Below are positions 1-26,820 of a stretch of 42,179 bases of DNA, one piece after another. Numbering within the stretch: position 1 is the stretch's first letter; every line of letters begins with the position of its first letter. The notes below the pieces were generated by a model. It ran no database searches. It saw only the letters and a program-made list of their open reading frames with translations, and was not told the DNA's origin. A program made the translations under genes and the position numbers. Source of the stretch: an uncultured Atopobiaceae bacterium (lineage in GTDB: Bacteria; Actinomycetota; Coriobacteriia; Coriobacteriales; Atopobiaceae). The stretch lies in NCBI GenBank assembly GCA_947626465.1, contig CANQSI010000002.1:1-42179 (forward strand), given 5' to 3'.

Positions 1-2219
1 GCGAGCACGGTGGGGGTGATCTTTCGCTCCGTTGCCACCGCCTCGCCGCCGATGGCCACCTTCATGGGGTCGATGAGCCCGAGGAGGCGCTGGTAGTGCT
101 TGCTGTTCACGATGGCGACGTAGTCGGGGTCCGCGAGCGGGTTCTGGCCGAACTGGCGGCAGATCTCGCCTTGGATCTCGTCGATGAGGCGTCCCTCGAT
201 CTCGCGATCGACGAGGATGTAGTCCGGCGCCACGCAGGTTTGCCCGGCGTTCAGGAACTTGCCCCACACGATGCGGCGCGCGGCGAGGGCGATGTTGGCC
301 GTGCGCTCCACGATGCAGGGGCTCTTGCCGCCGAGCTCGAGGATGGCGGGGGTGAGCCTGGGCGCCGCGTGGGCGAGCACCTCCTTGCCCACGGCCTGGC
401 TTCCGGTGAAGAAGATGAGGTCGAATGGCTCGTCGAGGAGCGCCGCGTTTTCCTTGCGGCCGCCGGTGACGCACGCCACGTGCTCGGGCCCGAAGGCCTC
501 GGAGACCATCTTCGCGATGATGGCGCTCGTGGCGGGGGAGTAGGCGCTCGGCTTCACCACGCAGCAGTTTCCTGCGGCGATGGCGTCCACGAGCGGATCC
601 ATCGTGAGGAGGAACGGGTAGTTCCACGGGCTCATGATGAGGGTGACGCCGTAGGGCGAGCGGGTGGTGTAGGAGACGGAGGCCGTTTGGGCAAGCGGCG
701 TCCATGCGAGCTTGTCGGCCACGTTGCCTAGGAGATGGCGCTTTTGGTAGTGGATCTCGGAGAGCACGAGGCCCACTTCGCACATGTAGGTTTCGAACTG
801 GCTCTTCGAGAGGTCGGCCTCGAGTGCCGCGTAGATGTCCTGCTCGTGCTCGATGATCGCGTTTTCGAGCTGGTCGAGCGCGCGCTTGCGGAAGCTGAGC
901 TCGAGCGTGCGGCGCTCGGAGAACCACGCCTTTTGGCGCGCCACTATCTGGGAGATCTCCCCCGCGCGCGCTGACGCGCTTTCGCTGGCGGAGGAAGGAG
1001 CCTCCGGCGCCGCTTGCTTAGGCGCCATGAGCGCGCGAAATACGTGGGAGAGCTCCTTGGCGTCCATCAGGACGGGCACGGGGTAGAGCGGATTCGCCTC
1101 TGCGGCGGCCCATTCCGAGAGCTGGGGGATGTCGGCGCGGCGGATCTCGGGGAAGGTGTCGGGGATGTCGAAGCGCACCTTCATCTCCACGATGGCCGAG
1201 ATGAAGCGCTGCGCGGCAGTCGCGGCGGGCGTGGCGTCGTGTGCGAGGCCCGCAGCCACGGCGAGGTCCTTGAGCTTGCCGTCGATGGCGCTCCCGTACA
1301 CCTCGAGCATGAGGGGCAAGACGACCGCGTTCGCGTAGCCATGGGGGATGTCGTAGGCGCCGCCGAGTGCGTGCGCGACGGCGTGCACGTAGCCCACGTA
1401 CGACACGGTGAAGGCGCATCCTGCGAGGTAGGCCGCCTCAAGCATGGCACGGCGAGCCTCGAGGTCCTCGGGGTGCTCGTAGCTCTTCTCGAGGTTCTGG
1501 AAGATGAGGCGCACCGCCCGCAAGGCGTCTGCGCGCGTCTGCTTCGTCGTGGAGTTGCCGATGTAGGCCTCCACGGCGTGCGTGAGGGCGTCGAGGCCCG
1601 TCGTGGTGGTGAGCGAAGGGGGAAGCGTCTTGGTCATCTCCGGATCGAGCACGGCATAACGCGGGATGAGCGGGAAGTCGTTGATGGCGTACTTGTGGCG
1701 GGTGCGGGCGTCGACGATGACCGCGGCGAGCGTCACCTCGGAGCCGGTGCCCGCCGTCGTGGGGATGGCGATGAGCAGCGGTAAGGGGTGGATGACCTTG
1801 AGGATGCCCGCGAGCTTGGAGAGGGGCGTTCCCGGCCTCGCCACGCGGATGCCCACGCCCTTCGCGCAGTCGATGGAGGAGCCCCCGCCCACGGCCACGA
1901 TCGCGTCGCAGCCCTCGGCCTTGTAGAACTCGTAGGCGGCCTCGACGGTCTCGGTGGTGGGGTTCGCGCGCACGTCGGTGAAGATCGCGCAGCCGATGCC
2001 GGTGGCGTTGATGGCGCTGATGAGCTCCTTGGTGCCCTCGAGCTCGAATACGCCGGGGTCGGTGACGATGAGCGGACGTTTCGCGCCCTCCTTGCGCAGC
2101 ACGTCGGGCACTTGCCCAACCGAATCCAAGACCTCGGGGCGGCGATACGGAAGTGCGGGAATGGCAACGGCCATTCCCGTTTGGAACGTGCGGCAATAGG
2201 CGCTCTCTACGGGATTCAT
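1..2219 (-). CDS. Iron-containing alcohol dehydrogenase (N-terminal) fused to class-3-like aldehyde dehydrogenase (C-terminal); 3' end truncated by window edge
   Basis: Read by hand on the minus strand from ATG at 2219 (MNPVESAYCRTFQTGMAVAIPALPYRRPEVLDSVGQVP...). Fe-ADH motifs GGGSSIDCAKG, PTTAGTGSEVT, GLDALTHAVEAY, AHALGGAYDIPHGYANAVVLP. The frame stays open through linker LMAPKQAAPEAPSSASESASARAGEISQIV into ALDH motifs MSPWNYPFLLTMDPLVDAIAAGNCCVVKPS, LELGGKSPCIV, NAGQTCVAPDYILVD. GGAGG RBS upstream. Absent from the ORF track because it runs off the window. Confidence 0.9.
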   Translation of the reverse strand, partial: MNPVESAYCRTFQTGMAVAIPALPYRRPEVLDSVGQVPDVLRKEGAKRPLIVTDPGVFELEGTKELISAINATGIGCAIFTDVRANPTTETVEAAYEFYKAEGCDAIVAVGGGSSIDCAKGVGIRVARPGTPLSKLAGILKVIHPLPLLIAIPTTAGTGSEVTLAAVIVDARTRHKYAINDFPLIPRYAVLDPEMTKTLPPSLTTTTGLDALTHAVEAYIGNSTTKQTRADALRAVRLIFQNLEKSYEHPEDLEARRAMLEAAYLAGCAFTVSYVGYVHAVAHALGGAYDIPHGYANAVVLPLMLEVYGSAIDGKLKDLAVAAGLAHDATPAATAAQRFISAIVEMKVRFDIPDTFPEIRRADIPQLSEWAAAEANPLYPVPVLMDAKELSHVFRALMAPKQAAPEAPSSASESASARAGEISQIVARQKAWFSERRTLELSFRKRALDQLENAIIEHEQDIYAALEADLSKSQFETYMCEVGLVLSEIHYQKRHLLGNVADKLAWTPLAQTASVSYTTRSPYGVTLIMSPWNYPFLLTMDPLVDAIAAGNCCVVKPSAYSPATSAIIAKMVSEAFGPEHVACVTGGRKENAALLDEPFDLIFFTGSQAVGKEVLAHAAPRLTPAILELGGKSPCIVERTANIALAARRIVWGKFLNAGQTCVAPDYILVDREIEGRLIDEIQGEICRQFGQNPLADPDYVAIVNSKHYQRLLGLIDPMKVAIGGEAVATERKITPTVL

Positions 2220-2547: not shown

Positions 2548-3720
2548 ATGAAGTTCCTACACGTTGGAGACCTCCACCTGGGAAAGATGGTGAACGGCTT
2601 CTCTATGCTCGAGGATCAGCGGGTGACGCTCGAGCGCCTCCTCGACGATGCCGAAGCCGCCTCGGTGGGCGTGCTCGTGCTCTCGGGGGATCTCTACGAC
2701 CGCTCCATGCCCTCGGCGGAAGCCGTCGCGCTTCTCGATTGGTTTCTCACGGAGGCCACGGCGCGCGGCTTTCAGGTGCTCGCCATTCCCGGCAACCACG
2801 ATTCCGCGGAGCGCGTGAGCTATGCCTCGGCACTCCTCGAGCGCCAAGGGGTGCATGTGCCACCGGCGTTCGATGGGAGCCTCGCCTCGGTGGTGCTCGA
2901 GGATGAATTCGGCACGGTCGCCTTCTGGCTCATGCCGTTTCTGCGTCCGAGCAGCGTGCGCCCCTTCTTCGAGGAGAAGGAATTGGGCGCGGACTACACG
3001 GAGGCGCTTCGCTGCGTGCTCGAGGCCGCGCCCATCGACTATTCGCAGCGCAACGTGCTCGTCGCGCACCAGTTCGTGCTTGCGGGAGAGCTCGAACCCA
3101 CGCGAAGCGATTCCGAAGTTGCAATCGGAGGAGTCGATGGCGTGGACGCCGCGCTTTTCGAGGGCTTCGATTACGTGGCCCTCGGGCATCTCCATCGCCC
3201 CCAGAAGGTGGGGCGTGAAACGGTTCGCTATGCCGGTTCGCTCCTCAAATATTCATTCTCCGAGGCGCGTGGGCAGAAGTCTGCGGTGCTCGTGAGCCTG
3301 GGGCCGAAGGGCGAGGATGGCGTTGACTTCTCGCTTCTGCCGCTTCGCCCCCCGCACGATCTCCGCGAGGTGGAAGGCCCCCTCGAGGAGCTTGTCTCCC
3401 GCGAGGCGCTCTCCGAGGCAGATCCCGGGGACTACATCCACGCCATCATCACCGACGACGAGCCCCCCGCTGATGCCCTCGCGCGCCTGCGTGCTGCGTT
3501 CCCTCGGCTCATGGCGATGGACGTGTCCAACGCGAGCACGCGCCACGAAGCCGATCTTTCCCGGATAGAGGCAGACGAGGAGATGGACGACCCCCTCACG
3601 CTCTTCGAACGTTTCTTCGAGGAGCAAAACGCGCGTCCCCTCACCCCCGCACAGCGCGCGGTGCTCGAGGAGGTCTTCGAATCCTGCCTCGTGGCTGGCG
3701 AGGGGAGGGATGCCTCATGA
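2548..3720 (+). CDS. sbcD: Exonuclease SbcD (Mre11-like)
   Basis: MKFLHVGDLHLGK...LSGDLYDR...IPGNHDS...ALGHLHRPQ calcineurin-like phosphoesterase motifs; overlaps sbcC (ATGA). Alternative start at 2533. Confidence 0.95.
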   Translation: MKFLHVGDLHLGKMVNGFSMLEDQRVTLERLLDDAEAASVGVLVLSGDLYDRSMPSAEAVALLDWFLTEATARGFQVLAIPGNHDSAERVSYASALLERQGVHVPPAFDGSLASVVLEDEFGTVAFWLMPFLRPSSVRPFFEEKELGADYTEALRCVLEAAPIDYSQRNVLVAHQFVLAGELEPTRSDSEVAIGGVDGVDAALFEGFDYVALGHLHRPQKVGRETVRYAGSLLKYSFSEARGQKSAVLVSLGPKGEDGVDFSLLPLRPPHDLREVEGPLEELVSREALSEADPGDYIHAIITDDEPPADALARLRAAFPRLMAMDVSNASTRHEADLSRIEADEEMDDPLTLFERFFEEQNARPLTPAQRAVLEEVFESCLVAGEGRDAS

Positions 3721-6542
3721 GGCCCCTCAAGCTCACGATGAGCGCCTTTGGCCCCTACGGATCCACGGTTGAGGTGCCGTTCTACGAGCTCGGCGAGCGT
3801 GGGATCTACCTCATCACCGGCGATACCGGCGCGGGCAAGACCACGATCTTCGATGCCATTTGCTATGCCCTCTTCGGGGAGATGTCCGACAGGGCCCGTC
3901 CCGTATCGGAGATGCGGAGCGACTTCGCCCCGCCCGATCTGCTCACGGAGGTCGAGCTCGAGTTCCGCTACGCGGATGAGTGCTATCGGATTCGCCGCTC
4001 GCCCTCCCAAATGCGTCCCAAGAAGCGAGGGGAGGGCATCACGCCCCACAACGCAGCCGCGTGGCTGCGCCTCCCCAGCGGAAAGGAGATAGAGGGGCCC
4101 GCGTCGGTCGACCGGGAGATCGCCAATATCCTCTCGATGAGCGCGCAGCAGTTCCGCCAGATCGCGATGATCGCGCAGGGGAAGTTCCGAGAGCTCCTCA
4201 TCTCCCCCTCGGACGATCGGCGGCTCATCTTCCGCGAGCTCTTCGGCACGGCGCCCCTCGAGAACGTGCAGCGCGAGCTCAAAAATCGCCAGTCGGCGCT
4301 CTTCAAGGCGGATGCCGAGGCGAAGACCGCCATCGCCTCCACCTTGCAGCTCGCGGAGTTCGCAGGAGAAGGGCGTTGCGAGGCGTTCAACGAGCTCAGG
4401 GAGCATGCCGCGGTGAAGGGCGACGATCTGCTCGCGCTCCTCGATGCGCAAGAAGAGGAGGACAAGGCTGAGGAGAGGGGGCTCGACGCCGAACTCGCCC
4501 GCTTGGCGGGGGAGGCGCGCGAGGTGGACCAAGCGCTCAAGGAAGAGGAGCGCAGAGCGCGCCTCGTCGAAGAGCTCGAAAAGACTGAGACGCAGGTGCG
4601 CGCCTTGGAAGCGGATCTTTCGCGTGCCCAAAGGACGCGCGAGGAGGCGGAGGGATTCGCCCCGGAGATTGCCACGCTCGAGTTGCGGGTGCACGCGCTC
4701 GAAGCGGCGCTCGAGGGCCTCGAAGAGCTTGAGAAGGCGCGCTCTGAGCTCGCCGCGCTCGACGCAAAGTCGCGTGCGCTCGAGGACGCGCTTGGCAAGG
4801 CCCGCCACGGGCTCGAGCGCTTGCTTCGCGCGGACGGCCTGGGAGGGGAAGAGGCGATCGACGCCTCGGGTTTCGATGAACTCCTCGGCATCGCGCGGGC
4901 CCGGGTGCAGGCGCTTCGCGCGCGAAGCACGGAGCTCGAGGATGCGCTCAGCCAGCGGGCCCAAGCCGAGGGCGAGCTCAAGGCCCTCAAGGAGCGGCTC
5001 GAGGGCGTGGACGCGCAGCGCATGGAGCTGCGCACGCTCGAGGGGAGGGTGCGCAAGGCGGAGGCAGTGAGGGCGAAGGCGAATGAGGCGTACGTGGAGG
5101 CGCGAACGCGCGCCGAACGCGCGCTCGGCGCCTCCGCCACGCTCGAGCGACGCTTCCTCGACGAGCAGGCGGGCGTGCTCGCGGAAACGCTCGAGCCCGG
5201 CGAGGCGTGCCCGGTGTGCGGATCGCTCGAGCATCCAGCGCCCGCTTCGCGCTCTGCGGAGTGCCCAAGCGAAGCGGACGTCGAGCTCGCGCGCGCAAAC
5301 GCAGAGCGTGCGCGCGAGGAAGCGTCCTTGGCCTCGAAGCACGCGGGCGAGGCGGCGGTGCTCGCGAAGGGCGCGGGGGATGCGCTTGAAGCGTTCGTGG
5401 AAACGCACGGCAGCAAGGAAGCGCTCTCCCAAAGCGCGGACACGCTCTCCGAGGCCATCGCGCGCACAAGGCGCGAGGTGGAAGGCCTCGCCCGGCAATG
5501 CGAGGAGCGAAGGCGCCTCATGGCGAGCGCGCAGGCGCTCGAGCGCTCCATTGACGAGGCCGATGCGGTGAAGGATGGCATCGACCGGCGGGCGCGCGAG
5601 CTGGAGGCGAAGACGGCGAGCGTCCGTGCGCACGCGCGCACCCTTCAGGAAAACCTCCCCGCAAGGAGCCTCGAAGAGGCACATGCCGAGATGGAGCGTG
5701 CGCGCACGACGATACGAAAGCTCGCCCACGCGCGCGAGGCCGCGCAAAGGGCGCTCGACGATGCCTCGCACGCGCTCATGCAGGCGAGGGCGCAGCAGGG
5801 CTCGCGGCGCCAGGCGCTCGAGGAGATCCCCGAGGCGGATCAAACTGAGCTTGCGGCGAAGAGGGAAGCGCTCGCGAAACGCCAGGGGGAGGTCTCGGAG
5901 GCCCGCGATGTGGTGCACAGCCGACGTGGCAAGGACTCAGGGGTTGCGCGGGAGCTCTCCACGTGGCTCGAAACCTACGGGCGACTTCTCGGCGAGCACG
6001 CGGTGGTGGATGCCCTCGCCAACACGGCCAACGGCAACCTCAGCGGCGTGGCGAAGGTCACCTTCGAGACCTTCGTGCAGCAAACCTACCTCGACCGCGT
6101 GATCGCTGCGGCGAACCGCCGCCTCGAGGTGATTGCGAACGGACGCTACGAGCTCACCCGTCGCCGCGAGGCGAAGAACCTTCGGCAGCAGAGCGGCCTC
6201 GAGCTCGCTGTGCTCGACCATCGCAGCGGCAAGGAACGCGACGTGGCCACGCTCTCGGGAGGGGAATCCTTCGAGGCATCGCTCTCGCTCGCCCTCGGGC
6301 TCTCGGATGTGGCGCAGGCCCATGCGGGGGGCATCCGCCTCGACACGCTCTTCATCGACGAGGGCTTCGGCTCGCTCGATTCCGAGGCGCTGCAGCACGC
6401 GATCCGAATGCTCACGAGCCTCACGCCGGAAGACAAGCTCGTGGGTATCATCAGCCACGTGGACGCCCTCCGGGAATCCATCGACACGCGCATCGTCGTG
6501 AGCTCTGGGCGAGAAGGATCATCGCTTTCTGTCGAGGTGTAG
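3717..6542 (+). CDS. sbcC: Exonuclease SbcC (Rad50-like ATPase)
   Basis: Walker A GDTGAGKTTIFDAI, coiled coils with zinc hook CPVCG, signature LSGGESF, Walker B LFIDEGFGSLD. Confidence 0.95.
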   Translation: MRPLKLTMSAFGPYGSTVEVPFYELGERGIYLITGDTGAGKTTIFDAICYALFGEMSDRARPVSEMRSDFAPPDLLTEVELEFRYADECYRIRRSPSQMRPKKRGEGITPHNAAAWLRLPSGKEIEGPASVDREIANILSMSAQQFRQIAMIAQGKFRELLISPSDDRRLIFRELFGTAPLENVQRELKNRQSALFKADAEAKTAIASTLQLAEFAGEGRCEAFNELREHAAVKGDDLLALLDAQEEEDKAEERGLDAELARLAGEAREVDQALKEEERRARLVEELEKTETQVRALEADLSRAQRTREEAEGFAPEIATLELRVHALEAALEGLEELEKARSELAALDAKSRALEDALGKARHGLERLLRADGLGGEEAIDASGFDELLGIARARVQALRARSTELEDALSQRAQAEGELKALKERLEGVDAQRMELRTLEGRVRKAEAVRAKANEAYVEARTRAERALGASATLERRFLDEQAGVLAETLEPGEACPVCGSLEHPAPASRSAECPSEADVELARANAERAREEASLASKHAGEAAVLAKGAGDALEAFVETHGSKEALSQSADTLSEAIARTRREVEGLARQCEERRRLMASAQALERSIDEADAVKDGIDRRARELEAKTASVRAHARTLQENLPARSLEEAHAEMERARTTIRKLAHAREAAQRALDDASHALMQARAQQGSRRQALEEIPEADQTELAAKREALAKRQGEVSEARDVVHSRRGKDSGVARELSTWLETYGRLLGEHAVVDALANTANGNLSGVAKVTFETFVQQTYLDRVIAAANRRLEVIANGRYELTRRREAKNLRQQSGLELAVLDHRSGKERDVATLSGGESFEASLSLALGLSDVAQAHAGGIRLDTLFIDEGFGSLDSEALQHAIRMLTSLTPEDKLVGIISHVDALRESIDTRIVVSSGREGSSLSVEV

Positions 6543-21261: not shown

Positions 21262-22392
21262 CTATACGGGCTCGCGCGAGGAGCGCTCGCGGCGCTGGAG
21301 CATGAGATCCATGAGCACCAACGCGCACACCGCCTCGGCCACCGGCACGGCACGCGGCGCGATGCAGGGATCGTGGCGCCCCCGAACCTCGAGCTCGACT
21401 TCCTCCATGGTCTCGAGGTCCACCGAGTGTTGCGGCTTTGAGATCGAGGCCGTGGGCTTCACCGCGAGGCGCACGATGAGGGGAGCGCCGGTGGTGATGC
21501 CTCCGAGGATGCCTCCCGCATCGTTTTTTCCAGGTACGGCCTCGTTTCGCGCGTCGAGCGTGTAGGGATCGTTGTGCTCGGATCCACGCATCCGCGCCGC
21601 TTCGAATCCGGCGCCGAACTCCACGCCCTTCACGGCGGGAATGCCGAAGAGGGCTGCGGCGATCTGGTTTTCCACGCCCATCGCCATGGGCTCGCCGAGT
21701 CCCCCGGGCACGCCCGTGGCCACGACCTCGATGACCCCGCCCACGGAATCGCCTTTCCGGGCTGCGCTTTGAATGGCGTCTTGCATCTCGGTGGCGGCTT
21801 TCTCCGAGAGGGTGGGGAAGTCTCGCGAGGCAAGCGAGGCCATCTGCTCCTCGAGCGCCATTCGCGAGGGGAGGTCGAGCGTGCGCGCTGCGAACGGATC
21901 GTCTTCGATGCCCGCGACTTCCGCGAGGTGTGCGGCCACGCGCACGCCGCGTCCCGCGAGCCATTGCGAGGCGAGCGCCCCTGCGGCGGTGAGGGGGGCG
22001 GTGAGGCGTCCGGAGAACTGCCCGCCGCCAAAGCGATCCCAGTCATCGCCCCAGCGTCGCCATGCCACGAGGTCGGCGTGGCTCGGGCGCGGCACCTTGC
22101 CCATGGCCGAGTAGTCCTGGGGGCGCGTATCGGTGTTTTCGATCATGAGCGCGATCGGCGCGCCGGTGGTCCTTCCCTCGGCGCTGATGCCGCTGAGGAG
22201 GTGCACGCAATCCACCTCGCTTCGCTTCGTGGCCCATGCGCCCTGCCCGGGCGCGCGGCGCGCCATGAAGGCGGCGAGCGCCTGGCCATCCACCTCGAGC
22301 CCCGATGGGAAGTCGTCGATCACGCAGCCGATGACTTTGCTGTGGGACTGTCCGAAGACGCTCACGCGAAGCGCGTGCCCGAAGGTGTTCAT
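21262..22392 (-). CDS. aroC: Chorismate synthase
   Basis: MNTFGHALRVSVFGQSHSKVIGCVIDDFPSGLEVD, PRPSHADLVAWRRWG, RFGGGQFSGRLTAPL. Confidence 0.94.
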   Translation of the reverse strand: MNTFGHALRVSVFGQSHSKVIGCVIDDFPSGLEVDGQALAAFMARRAPGQGAWATKRSEVDCVHLLSGISAEGRTTGAPIALMIENTDTRPQDYSAMGKVPRPSHADLVAWRRWGDDWDRFGGGQFSGRLTAPLTAAGALASQWLAGRGVRVAAHLAEVAGIEDDPFAARTLDLPSRMALEEQMASLASRDFPTLSEKAATEMQDAIQSAARKGDSVGGVIEVVATGVPGGLGEPMAMGVENQIAAALFGIPAVKGVEFGAGFEAARMRGSEHNDPYTLDARNEAVPGKNDAGGILGGITTGAPLIVRLAVKPTASISKPQHSVDLETMEEVELEVRGRHDPCIAPRAVPVAEAVCALVLMDLMLQRRERSSREPV

Positions 22393-22399
22393 GGGGCGC

Positions 22400-23770
22400 T
22401 CATGCCTCCTCTACGCTGCCGCCGAGTGCTCGCAGCTCTTCGAAGAAGGTGGGATAGCTCTTGGAGACGCACTCGGCGCCGAGAATGGTCACCGGACCCT
22501 TCGCACGCAGTGCGCACACGGCGGCCATCATGGCGATGCGATGGTCCTTCGCCGCGTCCACGACGCCGCCTGAAAGCTCGCAGACGCCCTCGATCTCGAG
22601 CTCGTCTCCGAGAAGCGTCGCCTTTCCGCCGAGCGCCGTGAGGGCGTTGCGTACGCTCTCGAGGCGATCGCTTTCTTTAAGGCGCAAACGCCGCGTGCCG
22701 AAGAATCGCGTCTTTCCCTCCGCGAGCGCCGCCACGGCGGCGAGCGGGCACACGAGGTCGGGCATGTCGGAGAGGTCGAACGCCGCGCCCCTCAGGCCCT
22801 TGCCCGTGGCCTGGCATATGCCGCCTTCTCGGCTCACCCGCACCCCCATGAGCGCGAGGGCGCCGAGGATGGCGCGGTCGCCCTGTACGCTCGAGAGGTT
22901 GAGGTTCGACACGCGCACGTCTTCGCCGATGGCGCCCGCAGCGAGCCAGAACGCGGCTTGCGACCAGTCGCCCTCGATTTCGATGTCGCCGGGGCTTACG
23001 AGGCGCTGCCTTCCCTCCACGATGAAGCGGGTCGCGTGCTCGAAGTGCGCGCCGCGAATCGCCTGCGAATCCCCGTGCTCGCCGTCGAGGCGATCCGAGA
23101 GCACGTGCACGCCGAAGCGCTCGAGGGCCTCGGCGGTAAGCCGCACGTAGGGCTTCGATTCGAAGGGATCGAGCACGTGGAGGTCGAGTCCTTCGTCGAG
23201 AAGCGGCGAGGCCAAGAGGAGCCCTGAGATGTATTGCGAGCTCACGCTTCCGTCGATGCTGTAGCGGCCTCCCCTCACAGGTCCCTCGGCGACGAGCGGG
23301 AGTTCCTTCGCGCTCTTGTGCTCGATGGTGGCGCCGTGGCGAAGCAGCTCATCGGTGAGGGGCGCGAGCGGACGCTCGGGAAGGCGTCCCTCGCCGCTGA
23401 AGCGGGCGCGGGCGGGCAAGGCGCACACCACGGGGATGAGGAAACGCAGCGTCGCCCCCGATTCATTGCAGTTGAGCGCCACGTCCGAAAGCGCCACGGG
23501 CCTTCCCGATGGATCGTGGGGAAGCGGCGTCACGCGAAGCCCACGGGTGGAGGTTCCAGACGAATCGCGCCGTTCCATGGGTTGGATGCGCGCGCCGAGG
23601 GCACGCAGGCAGCGCACGGTGGCGGCGATGTCATCCGAGGCGTGTTCGATGGCGAGGAAGGTGGGCGTGTTCGCGATCGCGGAGAGGATGAGGAGGCGCT
23701 GCGCGATGGACTTCGAGGCGGGAGCGCGCACGGTTCCCGAGATCGAGATGGGCCGAATGGTCACATCCAT
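22400..23770 (-). CDS. aroA: 3-phosphoshikimate 1-carboxyvinyltransferase (EPSP synthase)
   Basis: VRAPASKSIAQRLLIL, NCNESGATLRFLIPV, EGDWSQAAFWLAAG, LRLKESDRLESV. Confidence 0.95.
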   Translation of the reverse strand: MDVTIRPISISGTVRAPASKSIAQRLLILSAIANTPTFLAIEHASDDIAATVRCLRALGARIQPMERRDSSGTSTRGLRVTPLPHDPSGRPVALSDVALNCNESGATLRFLIPVVCALPARARFSGEGRLPERPLAPLTDELLRHGATIEHKSAKELPLVAEGPVRGGRYSIDGSVSSQYISGLLLASPLLDEGLDLHVLDPFESKPYVRLTAEALERFGVHVLSDRLDGEHGDSQAIRGAHFEHATRFIVEGRQRLVSPGDIEIEGDWSQAAFWLAAGAIGEDVRVSNLNLSSVQGDRAILGALALMGVRVSREGGICQATGKGLRGAAFDLSDMPDLVCPLAAVAALAEGKTRFFGTRRLRLKESDRLESVRNALTALGGKATLLGDELEIEGVCELSGGVVDAAKDHRIAMMAAVCALRAKGPVTILGAECVSKSYPTFFEELRALGGSVEEA

Positions 23771-23792
23771 GGATGTCTACCTCGTACTTCTC

Positions 23793-24902
23793 TTAGGAAA
23801 CGATACCCGCGCGCACGAGTTCGGCGAATTGGCCGATCTCCATCGGCCTCACTTCCACCTCGCCGAGGAAGCGCACGATCACGGCGTTCACGTTGGAACC
23901 GTGGCGCTTCTTGTCCATGCGGAGGCGCTCGATGATCGCCTCGGCGCCCACCGTGGTGTTCGTGGGGAGGCCGTAGGCGTCGATGCAGCGTGCGATCGCG
24001 CGGGTGACGGGGGCGGGGGTGAGGCCGAGTGCGGTCGCGCCACGGCTAAGGATCGCGAGGCCCGCAGCCACGCAGGCGCCATGGCCAAGGGTGTAGTTGC
24101 TCGCCGCCTCGATGGCGTGGCCGATCGTGTGGCCGAGGTTGAGGGTTTGGCGAATGCCGCTCTCGCGCTCATCGATCACCACGACGTCGCGCTTCACCCG
24201 CACGTTGGCGGCGACGATGGTGGCCATCCGATCGAAGTCGAGCGCGGCGCAGTCCGCGGCACCGAAGAGGGGGGCGGTGAGCGGGTGGTCGGCGATCGCG
24301 TTGAAGAGCGCGGGGCCCGCGAGTACGCCATGCTTGATGATCTCGCCGAAGGCGTCCGTGAGCAGGGCAGGCGAGAGCGTGGCGAGCGTCTCCACGTCCT
24401 CGAGCACGAGGGCGGGCTGCAGGAACGCGCCCGCGAGGTTCTTTCCGCCCTGGAGGTCCACGGCGGTCTTGCCACCCACCGACGAATCCACCATCGCGAG
24501 GAGGCTCGTCGGCACCTGCACGACGGTGATGCCGCGCATGTAGGTGGCTGCGGCGAAGCCCGCGAGGTCGCCGACGACCCCTCCTCCGAGGGCGATCACC
24601 GCGTCATCGCGCGTGAGGCCGGATTGCGCCATCACCTCGAGGCACGTGGCGTAGGTTTGGAGGTTCTTTCGGGCCTCGCCCGCCTCGAAGGCGAAGATGC
24701 TGATGGCGAAGCCCGCGTTTCGCAGCGAATCGGCCACGCGCTCCCCGTAGAGCGGCCACACGTGCGAATCGGTGACGATCAAGAGCGTCGAGCCCTTGAC
24801 GAGCGGACGCACGCGCTCACCGAGCGTATCGAGGATGCCCCGGCCGCAGATGACGTCGTAGGCGCGAGATGAGGTGGGGACTTGGATGATCTCTTCCGAC
24901 AT
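23793..24902 (-). CDS. aroB: 3-dehydroquinate synthase
   Basis: ALGGGVVGDLAGFAAATYMRGI, VQVPTSLLAMVDSSVGGKTAVD, NLGHTIGHAIE; start at 24902 (MSEEIIQVPTSS), possible upstream start. Confidence 0.95.
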   Translation of the reverse strand: MSEEIIQVPTSSRAYDVICGRGILDTLGERVRPLVKGSTLLIVTDSHVWPLYGERVADSLRNAGFAISIFAFEAGEARKNLQTYATCLEVMAQSGLTRDDAVIALGGGVVGDLAGFAAATYMRGITVVQVPTSLLAMVDSSVGGKTAVDLQGGKNLAGAFLQPALVLEDVETLATLSPALLTDAFGEIIKHGVLAGPALFNAIADHPLTAPLFGAADCAALDFDRMATIVAANVRVKRDVVVIDERESGIRQTLNLGHTIGHAIEAASNYTLGHGACVAAGLAILSRGATALGLTPAPVTRAIARCIDAYGLPTNTTVGAEAIIERLRMDKKRHGSNVNAVIVRFLGEVEVRPMEIGQFAELVRAGIVS

Positions 24903-24910
24903 CGCCTCGC

Positions 24911-25804
24911 TCACCTGCCTTCCGCTTCCCGCTTTGCCCGATCTCCCTCGGCGAGGAGCTCCTGCAGGCGATCCCGATCTCCCGCGCGAAGCGCGTCGGC
25001 GTAGGCGCCGAGATGCGCGCGAAGCCCGTCGATCTCTGCGACGAGGTTGTCGGCGTCGTCCATGAAGAGCTCGGCCCACATCGCCGCGTTCAGGCGTGCG
25101 ACGCGCGTGAGGTCGAGGTACGAACCCGCAGAGAAGCCTTTGTGCACGAGCGCGCGCGGGCTCTTCACGTAGGCGTTCGACACCACGTGGGCGAGTTGCG
25201 AGGTGTAGGCGATGATCTCGTCGTGCTCGGTGGGGGAGGCCATGGTGTAGGAGCCGAACCCAAGGGGCTCGAGGAGCTTCGTCAAGCGATCGAGCGTCCA
25301 AAGCCGATCGATCTCGTCCATCTCGGGGTCGGCGCAGACGACCATCGGCGCCTTGCGAAACATCGTGGCGCGCGAATGGGCGAAGCCCGAGTACTGCGTG
25401 CCCGCCATGGGGTGGCATCCCACGAAGGTGAAGCCGTGCGTGCGTGCGAGCGGCCAGAGCTCCGAGCACACCGCGCGCTTCACGCCGGCGGTGTCGATGA
25501 CGATGGTCGAGGGGCTCACGAGCTCCGCGTGCTCCCTCAGCCATTCCACGAGATGCTCGGGATAGGTGGTGAGTACGATGAGCTCGCAGGTGGGGATGAC
25601 CTCATCGGTGAGCTCGCCCGTGGCGGATTCGATGAGGGCGAAGTCGAGGGTGGAGCGAGTGCGGTTCCACACGTATGTCTCCGTGTCGGCGTCATGGAAG
25701 GCCTTCGCGAAGGAGCCGCCCATGAGCCCCAGGCCCACGACGCCCACGCGCCCAGCGACCACCGGCGCTGAAGGAGTGCGCTCCACCTCGGAAAGATCGC
25801 TCAC
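24911..25804 (-). CDS. tyrA: Prephenate dehydrogenase
   Basis: VGVVGLGLMGGSFAKAF, VGCHPMAGTQYSGFAHS, YTSQLAHVVSNAY. Confidence 0.93.
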   Translation of the reverse strand: MSDLSEVERTPSAPVVAGRVGVVGLGLMGGSFAKAFHDADTETYVWNRTRSTLDFALIESATGELTDEVIPTCELIVLTTYPEHLVEWLREHAELVSPSTIVIDTAGVKRAVCSELWPLARTHGFTFVGCHPMAGTQYSGFAHSRATMFRKAPMVVCADPEMDEIDRLWTLDRLTKLLEPLGFGSYTMASPTEHDEIIAYTSQLAHVVSNAYVKSPRALVHKGFSAGSYLDLTRVARLNAAMWAELFMDDADNLVAEIDGLRAHLGAYADALRAGDRDRLQELLAEGDRAKREAEGR

Positions 25805-26820
25805 TCGTCCTCCATCTCAACCGCCTGGCGCACAAGTGCGATCCTGCGCATGGCGTTTTTGAACTGCATCGGCGTGAGCGCCTGGGCGCCATCCGACCAC
25901 GCGCGCGAGGGCTCAGGGTGCACCTCGATCTCGAGGCCATCGGCGCCGGCTGCGGTGGCCGCGAGCGCGGCGGAGACGACGTAGCGCGTATAGCCGGCCG
26001 CGTGGGAGGGATCCCCCACGATCGGCAGGTGGGAGAGCTGGTGGCAGACCGCGATCGCGTTGGTGTCGAAGGTGTTTCTGGTGTGGGTCTCGAAGGTACG
26101 GATGCCTCGCTCGCAGAGGATGACCTTCTCGTTGCCCTCGCTCATCACATACTCGGCCGCCATGAGGAACTCGTCGATCGTGGCGGCGAACCCGCGCTTC
26201 AAGAGCACCGGCACGTCCGTCTTGCCCACCTCCTTCAGGAGGGGGAAGTTCTGCATGTTGCGTGCGCCGATCTGCATCACGTCCACGTCGAAGTCCACGA
26301 AGAGCTGCACGTCGCGCGGATCCATCACCTCGGAGACGATGGGCATCTCAAGCTCGGACTTTGCCTCGGCGAGGATCTTCAGGCCCGCCGCGCCCATGCC
26401 CTGGTTCGCATAGGGGCTGGTGCGCGGCTTGTAGGCGCCGCCGCGAAGCATCGTGGCGCCCGCCGCCTTCACCTCGCGCGCGATCTCCACGAGCTCCTCG
26501 CCCTCCACGGAGCAGGGCCCGGCGATCACCTGGAAGTTCCCACCACCGATCTGGACGCCGAAGCCGCAGTCGATGACGGAGTCCTGGGGGTGGAACTTGC
26601 GATTTGCGAGCTTGAAAGGCTCGGATACGCGCGTGACGCGCTCGATGATGTCCATCGATTCCAAGAGGAAGGGGTCGATGGAGAAGGTGTCGCCCACGAG
26701 GCCGACGACGGTTTCGTTGGTGCCCTCCGAGACGTAGGCCGAGAGGCCCTTCGACTCGATCCACGCAATGAGGTGGTTCAGCTGCTCGGGAGTGGCGCTT
26801 GGTTTAACGATGGCGATCAT
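25801..26820 (-). CDS. aroF: 3-deoxy-7-phosphoheptulonate synthase (DAHP synthase, KDO8P-like type)
   Basis: VIAGPCSVEGEELVEIAREVKAAGATMLRGGAYKPRTSPY, MQIGARNMQNFPLLKEVGKT, VLLKRG, DPSHAAG; N-terminal ferredoxin-like regulatory domain. Confidence 0.95.
   Translation of the reverse strand: MIAIVKPSATPEQLNHLIAWIESKGLSAYVSEGTNETVVGLVGDTFSIDPFLLESMDIIERVTRVSEPFKLANRKFHPQDSVIDCGFGVQIGGGNFQVIAGPCSVEGEELVEIAREVKAAGATMLRGGAYKPRTSPYANQGMGAAGLKILAEAKSELEMPIVSEVMDPRDVQLFVDFDVDVMQIGARNMQNFPLLKEVGKTDVPVLLKRGFAATIDEFLMAAEYVMSEGNEKVILCERGIRTFETHTRNTFDTNAIAVCHQLSHLPIVGDPSHAAGYTRYVVSAALAATAAGADGLEIEVHPEPSRAWSDGAQALTPMQFKNAMRRIALVRQAVEMEDE

Follow-up and report, generated by a model that had tools for sequence, protein, structure and literature searches.

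What does a protein do in which an iron-dependent alcohol dehydrogenase (Fe-ADH) precedes an aldehyde dehydrogenase (ALDH), and how did such a protein arise? The locus described here, from an uncultured bacterium of the Atopobiaceae, raises both questions. AdhE also consists of a domain of the ALDH superfamily fused to an Fe-ADH domain and is of comparable length (~870-890 aa), but its ALDH domain is N-terminal and its Fe-ADH domain C-terminal, i.e., in the opposite order. Another hallmark of AdhE is its assembly into helical spirosome filaments. AdhE and BdhE are independent ALDH-ADH fusions that are never found in one genome, and gene neighbouring comes before fusion (Konno et al., 2025; PMC12454647). 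The same study counted 8467 ALDH-ADH proteins in InterPro vs. five ADH-ALDH proteins. These five have the architecture of the protein described here, PF00465 then PF00171, and were counted without being named, studied or pursued further. Beyond this single count, no study of the reversed ADH-ALDH architecture was found in the literature searched. The architecture as such has been counted before; no description of the family, of its recurrence or of its chemistry exists in the searchable literature.

The fused gene and its genus

The window, i.e., the whole stretch of 42,179 nucleotides that was analysed, is the entire contig C2 of a draft genome of 0.96 Mb that is ~70% complete. Base 1 of the window is the end of the contig and not the end of the gene: a single unbroken frame of 739 aa on the reverse strand (3-2219), starting with ATG, is still open there. 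The sequence-only reading had sought flanking sequence for the full C-terminus, and this was obtained from a second contig of the same genome, C29, the end of which is identical over 77 bases to the start of the window. Joining C2 and C29 yields a complete fusion protein of 875 aa, the last 136 aa of which come from C29. The features of the gene are as follows.

3-2219, reverse strand: fused Fe-ADH to class-3 ALDH gene (open reading frame and translation; completed through the 77-nt exact contig overlap)
2229-2233, reverse strand: Shine-Dalgarno-like GGAGG, 9 nt 5′ of the ATG (read from the sequence)
2154-2213, reverse strand: N-terminal helix, aa 3-22, within the YCRxFQ...P.LPYRxP signature (helix pLDDT ~90 in the model of the homologue L029)
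1029-2123, reverse strand: Fe-ADH domain, aa 33-397 (PF00465, PF25137; conserved ligands)
960-1025, reverse strand: Ala/Ser-rich linker, aa 399-420, varying in length and sequence (alignment; high dN/dS; pLDDT < 50 at the equivalent site)
3-959, reverse strand: class-3 ALDH domain, aa 421-739, with the C-terminal 136 aa on C29 (PF00171; PDB matches to ALDH3 enzymes)
621-623, reverse strand: N533, oxyanion Asn of PWNYP (conserved in 86/86)
336-338, reverse strand: E628, general base of LELGGK (conserved in 86/86; Gly in same-genus AdhE by alignment)
234-236, reverse strand: C662, catalytic cysteine of NAGQTC (conserved in 86/86)

On the 739-aa product, Pfam places PF00465 (aa 33-193) and PF25137 (aa 205-397) ahead of PF00171 (aa 413-739), all far above cut-off, which bears out the earlier proposal that Fe-ADH comes first and ALDH second. 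The frame had also been read as open through the Ala/Ser-rich linker; indeed, positions 960-1060 hold neither a stop nor a frameshift, and the junction is likewise open in separately assembled congeneric genomes. As the gene adjoins the edge of a contig and the draft is 70% complete, one could suspect that faulty assembly or sequencing joined two genes. However, such an artefact is practically excluded, as the junction recurs in independent assemblies, both within the genus and in lineages unrelated to it, and the variable linker sits between constrained halves.

The fusion is present in 5/5 other genomes of this Atopobiaceae genus, which bear the public names of uncultured Atopobiaceae MAGs labelled Lapin and are for this reason presumed to originate from the rabbit gut. 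Four of the five carry it as a whole single frame (872-874 aa, 76-91% identity to the reference protein); in the remaining one (G004) the gene is split across two contigs, one of which holds the ADH-linker junction intact. A survey of 140 genomes from the family gave no carrier of the fusion outside this genus. Across the genus, dN/dS ranges from 0.10 to 0.31 in the ADH half, from 0.14 to 0.46 in the ALDH half and from 0.43 to 1.03 in the linker, which is the pattern expected of a working two-domain protein with purifying selection on its halves and a loose linker.

The nuclease genes sbcD and sbcC (window 2548-6542, forward strand) adjoin the fusion gene and are divergent from it; the arrangement is similar at L029, and neither sbcD nor sbcC was seen flanking L032, a more distant member. 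Elsewhere in the window (21262-26820, reverse strand), a shikimate pathway cluster codes for chorismate synthase, EPSP synthase, a 583-aa protein and DAHP synthase. The 583-aa protein has a dehydroquinate synthase C-terminal half and ~230 extra N-terminal residues without Pfam assignment. A search for plasmid carriage gave no plasmid record in which a single place covered 80% of the query.

The two halves and their predicted chemistry

The ADH half belongs to the group III Fe-ADHs, based on PF00465 and PF25137 together with the Asp/His/His/His metal ligands (D210, H214, H279 and H293), all of which are present, as is H283. Its nearest solved structures are 1,3-propanediol oxidoreductase, methanol dehydrogenase and Zymomonas ADH2, and it has fold and metal ligands in common with the group III enzymes (3bfj, 1,3-propanediol oxidoreductase; 8zrl, Bacillus methanol dehydrogenase; 3owo, Z. 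mobilis ADH2; and FucO). It differs from them as a distinct subfamily that bears an N-terminal YCRxFQ...LPYRxP helix and reaches no NCBIfam cut-off, the lactaldehyde reductase model included. An Asp (D54) occupies the position at which the Asp of FucO favours NAD, and suggests that the ADH half is probably NAD(H)-linked. The YCRxFQ...P.LPYRxP signature of the N-terminal helix was also seen in most fused ADH halves and most unfused ADH relatives, and the helix is moderately amphipathic in several relatives.

Whether the ADH half is an enzyme at all deserves consideration, since its best NCBIfam match is ErcA (NF041833) and since one reversed fusion, L163 (1432-3999, genome G796), has an ADH half that is an Fe-ADH by Pfam with zero metal ligands left. 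There, D is changed to I, the H residues to Q, S and V, and the equivalent of H283 to F, so that a pseudo-ADH half is joined to an intact class-3 ALDH. The loss of every ligand in L163 implies that catalysis by the ADH half may not be universal. A mainly structural or regulatory, ErcA-like role is nevertheless unlikely, given that the ErcA model scores 302 bits vs. a curated cut-off of 550 and that the metal ligands are intact in 16/17 fused rows and, one substitution aside, in the 69 unfused rows.

The ALDH half combines PF00171, the catalytic Asn, Glu and Cys, and nearest structures within ALDH3, and is by these features a class-3 ALDH. It had been read from its motifs (SPWNYPFLL, LELGGKSPCIVE and NAGQTCVAPDYILV) as class-3-like rather than AdhE-like; all three were found in the translation, and the closest structures, S. 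aureus AldH (6k0z), human ALDH3A1 and benzaldehyde dehydrogenase (5ucd), agree with that assignment. In the fold search, 6k0z, 3sza (human ALDH3A1), 4qgk (FALDH) and 5ucd (MdlD) were ~39-43% identical to the ALDH half; they have the same fold and catalytic residues, and none is fused to an ADH. The best equivalog model is that of the benzaldehyde dehydrogenase MdlD (NF045701), with 425 bits for the complete homologue vs. a curated cut-off of 550; none of the NCBIfam equivalogs (AdhE, ErcA, MdlD and lactaldehyde reductase models) reaches its cut-off against the fusion. The substrate may be a hydrophobic or aromatic aldehyde. At the cofactor site, the fusion has KPSA whereas 6k0z and 3sza have KPSE, and this Ala may direct the ALDH half to NADP rather than NAD.

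The presence of the same two Pfam families as in AdhE brings up the alternative of a functional AdhE with swapped domains, i.e., a CoA-acylating ALDH and an ADH that would convert acetyl-CoA to ethanol. The ADH half does match the ADH end of the AdhE model (NF010378), but this end only, and the score of 255 bits is far from the cut-off of 951. The active site also argues against this alternative. Hydrolytic ALDHs use a general-base Glu, which is missing from CoA-acylating ALDHs. Upon alignment of the ALDH half with AdhE of a sister genome, the cysteine matches, whereas the general-base Glu of the fusion, a class-3 enzyme, corresponds to Gly in AdhE, the ALDH of which is CoA-acylating. Since the fusion has kept this Glu, as in hydrolytic ALDHs, a free acid is the expected product. 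Finally, AdhE, full or partial, is found in 5/5 other genomes of the genus, so that the role of AdhE is already filled. A swapped AdhE is thus very unlikely, and membership of the AdhE family is ruled out by domain order, model cut-off and active site.

Probable recurrent joining of a neighbouring gene pair

Confinement of the fusion to a single genus was considered and rejected, as fused forms were found in scattered other lineages. A first scan of species genomes, biased to close and same-frame relatives, gave 80 loci, i.e., 9 fused (5 from the genus of the window), 65 adjacent gene pairs and 6 ALDH genes alone; because the scan favoured such relatives, the ratio of fused forms to pairs is not a prevalence. 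In wider sampling, based on subsets of genomes of which most were MAGs, the fused form occurred in 3/397 Lachnospiraceae genomes, in 8/396 genomes of one clostridial order and in 2/391 genomes sampled across the class to which the Lachnospiraceae belong, both previously found. At the threshold used, the operon was present in 103/397 sampled Lachnospiraceae genomes (about a quarter), mostly detected by its ALDH half. The gene pairs belong mainly to Lachnospiraceae and other Clostridia, with some in Treponema, and are present in further Atopobiaceae genera and elsewhere in the order. The ADH gene lies upstream of the ALDH gene in 65/65 pairs, an order that query and script sought, with a spacing usually well below 150 nt. 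The reversed domain order needs no special cause, since it copies the ADH-then-ALDH order of the operon.

How often the two genes were joined was assessed on trees. A careful tree was built from 52 rows, 15 of them fused. It requires 7 changes of the fused state, each imposed by well-supported branches; the count is 7 at both the 5th and the 95th percentile of bootstrap trees and 8 on a larger, quick tree, although such counts cannot alone separate fusion from splitting. As parsimony is unable to tell gain from loss, a single ancient fusion that was re-split many times would agree with these counts. Such a history is decidedly improbable, however. Fused forms appear as rare tips surrounded by pairs, the linkers of different fused groups (6-33 aa) have no common sequence or length, and every split would require a stop, a ribosome site and a start to arise anew. 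Furthermore, the junction of L137 (genome G282), where the ALDH half starts, has kept an AGAGGAG that resembles a ribosome site, together with an ATG in frame. This junction resembles the trace left by a stop that has been lost, and a separate ALDH may also be made from the internal start. Because the linkers are unrelated and L137 retains the motif and the ATG, we infer that many fusions are likelier than one fusion and many splits. Trees and junctions indicate, as far as sequences can tell, that the halves were joined about seven times independently, from a neighbouring gene pair common in gut bacteria.

BdhE (structure 9ldl), for which a donut-like homotetramer is characteristic, is an ALDH/Fe-ADH fusion independent of AdhE with ALDH first, whereas the window fusion has ADH first. 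According to Konno et al. (2025; PMC12454647), BdhE never co-occurs with AdhE; the reversed fusion does so in genomes of the same genus. The rule that neighbouring precedes fusion is obeyed by the reversed family, with reversed gene order. The listed structural match to 9ldl covers about one half only (383 columns). Membership of the BdhE family is ruled out by the reversed order and by the co-occurrence with AdhE in the genus.

At 13 of the examined loci, a gene for a MarR-type regulator lies upstream; the neighbours otherwise vary. Since this regulator alone recurs, the ADH-ALDH pair looks like a self-contained unit rather than a part of a longer pathway, and the gene neighbours of these loci give no hint of the substrate. 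Upstream of related but distinct ADH-ALDH pairs lies a conserved gene coding for 159-207 aa (L063:128-604, L064:5563-6048 and L066:5281-5901); the products of L063 and L064, both tested, had no Pfam match.

Proposed function and domain contacts

We consider it likely that fused ADH-then-ALDH operon genes gave one protein made of an Fe-dependent, probably NAD(H)-linked ADH and a class-3 ALDH that gives a free acid by hydrolysis and not by CoA transfer. The fusion most likely interconverts alcohol, aldehyde and acid without CoA. On the one hand, the ADH half would interconvert alcohol and aldehyde with NAD(H). On the other hand, the ALDH half would convert aldehyde and water to acid with NAD(P). 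Both halves would handle one aldehyde, and their fusion would fix them in equal amounts and hold the reactive aldehyde close to both sites. The net reaction could be the oxidation of an alcohol; for an anaerobe, it is more plausible that a reactive aldehyde is disposed of as alcohol and acid. The ADH-ALDH pair looks like a self-contained response unit.

A more specific form of this CoA-free interconversion would be a redox-neutral, detoxifying aldehyde dismutase, in which the ALDH half oxidises one aldehyde and the ADH half reduces a second one with the resulting NAD(P)H, giving acid and alcohol. Dismutation as detoxification is attractive in an anaerobe: the hosts are anaerobic gut bacteria, both halves seem catalytically intact by their residues, and some unfused operons have a MarR-type regulator upstream. 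MarR-type regulators often respond to small toxic molecules. The cycle needs a shared cofactor, however, and D54 suggests NAD(H) for the ADH half while the Ala at KPSx may allow NADP for the ALDH half; use of NADP by the latter would weaken internal cofactor recycling. We therefore regard dismutation as a possible but tentative sub-case of the broader CoA-free reading.

The sequence-only reading had also suggested direct channelling between alcohol and acid without CoA. Its CoA-free part is supported, as no CoA-acylating site is apparent in the fusion and the general-base Glu is found in 86/86 sequences, in contrast to the Gly of same-genus AdhE. Channelling, on the contrary, gained no backing from structure prediction. 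In the model, which was made on the 873-aa homologue L029 and not on the window protein, both halves are well folded (mean pLDDT 87.5, pTM 0.62) and the linker is disordered (pLDDT < 50), so that no docked domain arrangement is confidently predicted. None of the best 50 structural matches spans both halves, and the model lends no support to docking or channelling.

The fusion draws attention to an operon, so far unstudied, for which CoA-free handling of reactive aldehydes or alcohols in the gut is probable. AdhE and BdhE have served as two natural repeats for studying the aftermath of ALDH/ADH fusion (Konno et al., 2025; PMC12454647). To these would be added about seven further apparent fusions of a single operon, with the domains the other way round and with unfused relatives available for comparison, which makes it testable whether domain order is a copy of gene order and whether docking and channelling have repeatedly evolved in fused domains. 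A bolder proposal, which we hold to be rather doubtful, is that of a third, reversed kind of ALDH/ADH fusion, born some seven or more times from one operon, the members of which would be self-contained CoA-free aldehyde dismutases with inter-domain contacts evolved on their own. If true, these would be natural replicates for asking how predictable protein architecture is after fusion.

Every genome of the genus also carries a second class-3-like ALDH (G000:C25:6006-7406, reverse strand, with homologues in G001-G005), which is 44-47% identical to the fused ALDH half; its frames are ~500 aa long, apart from one of 856 aa in G002.
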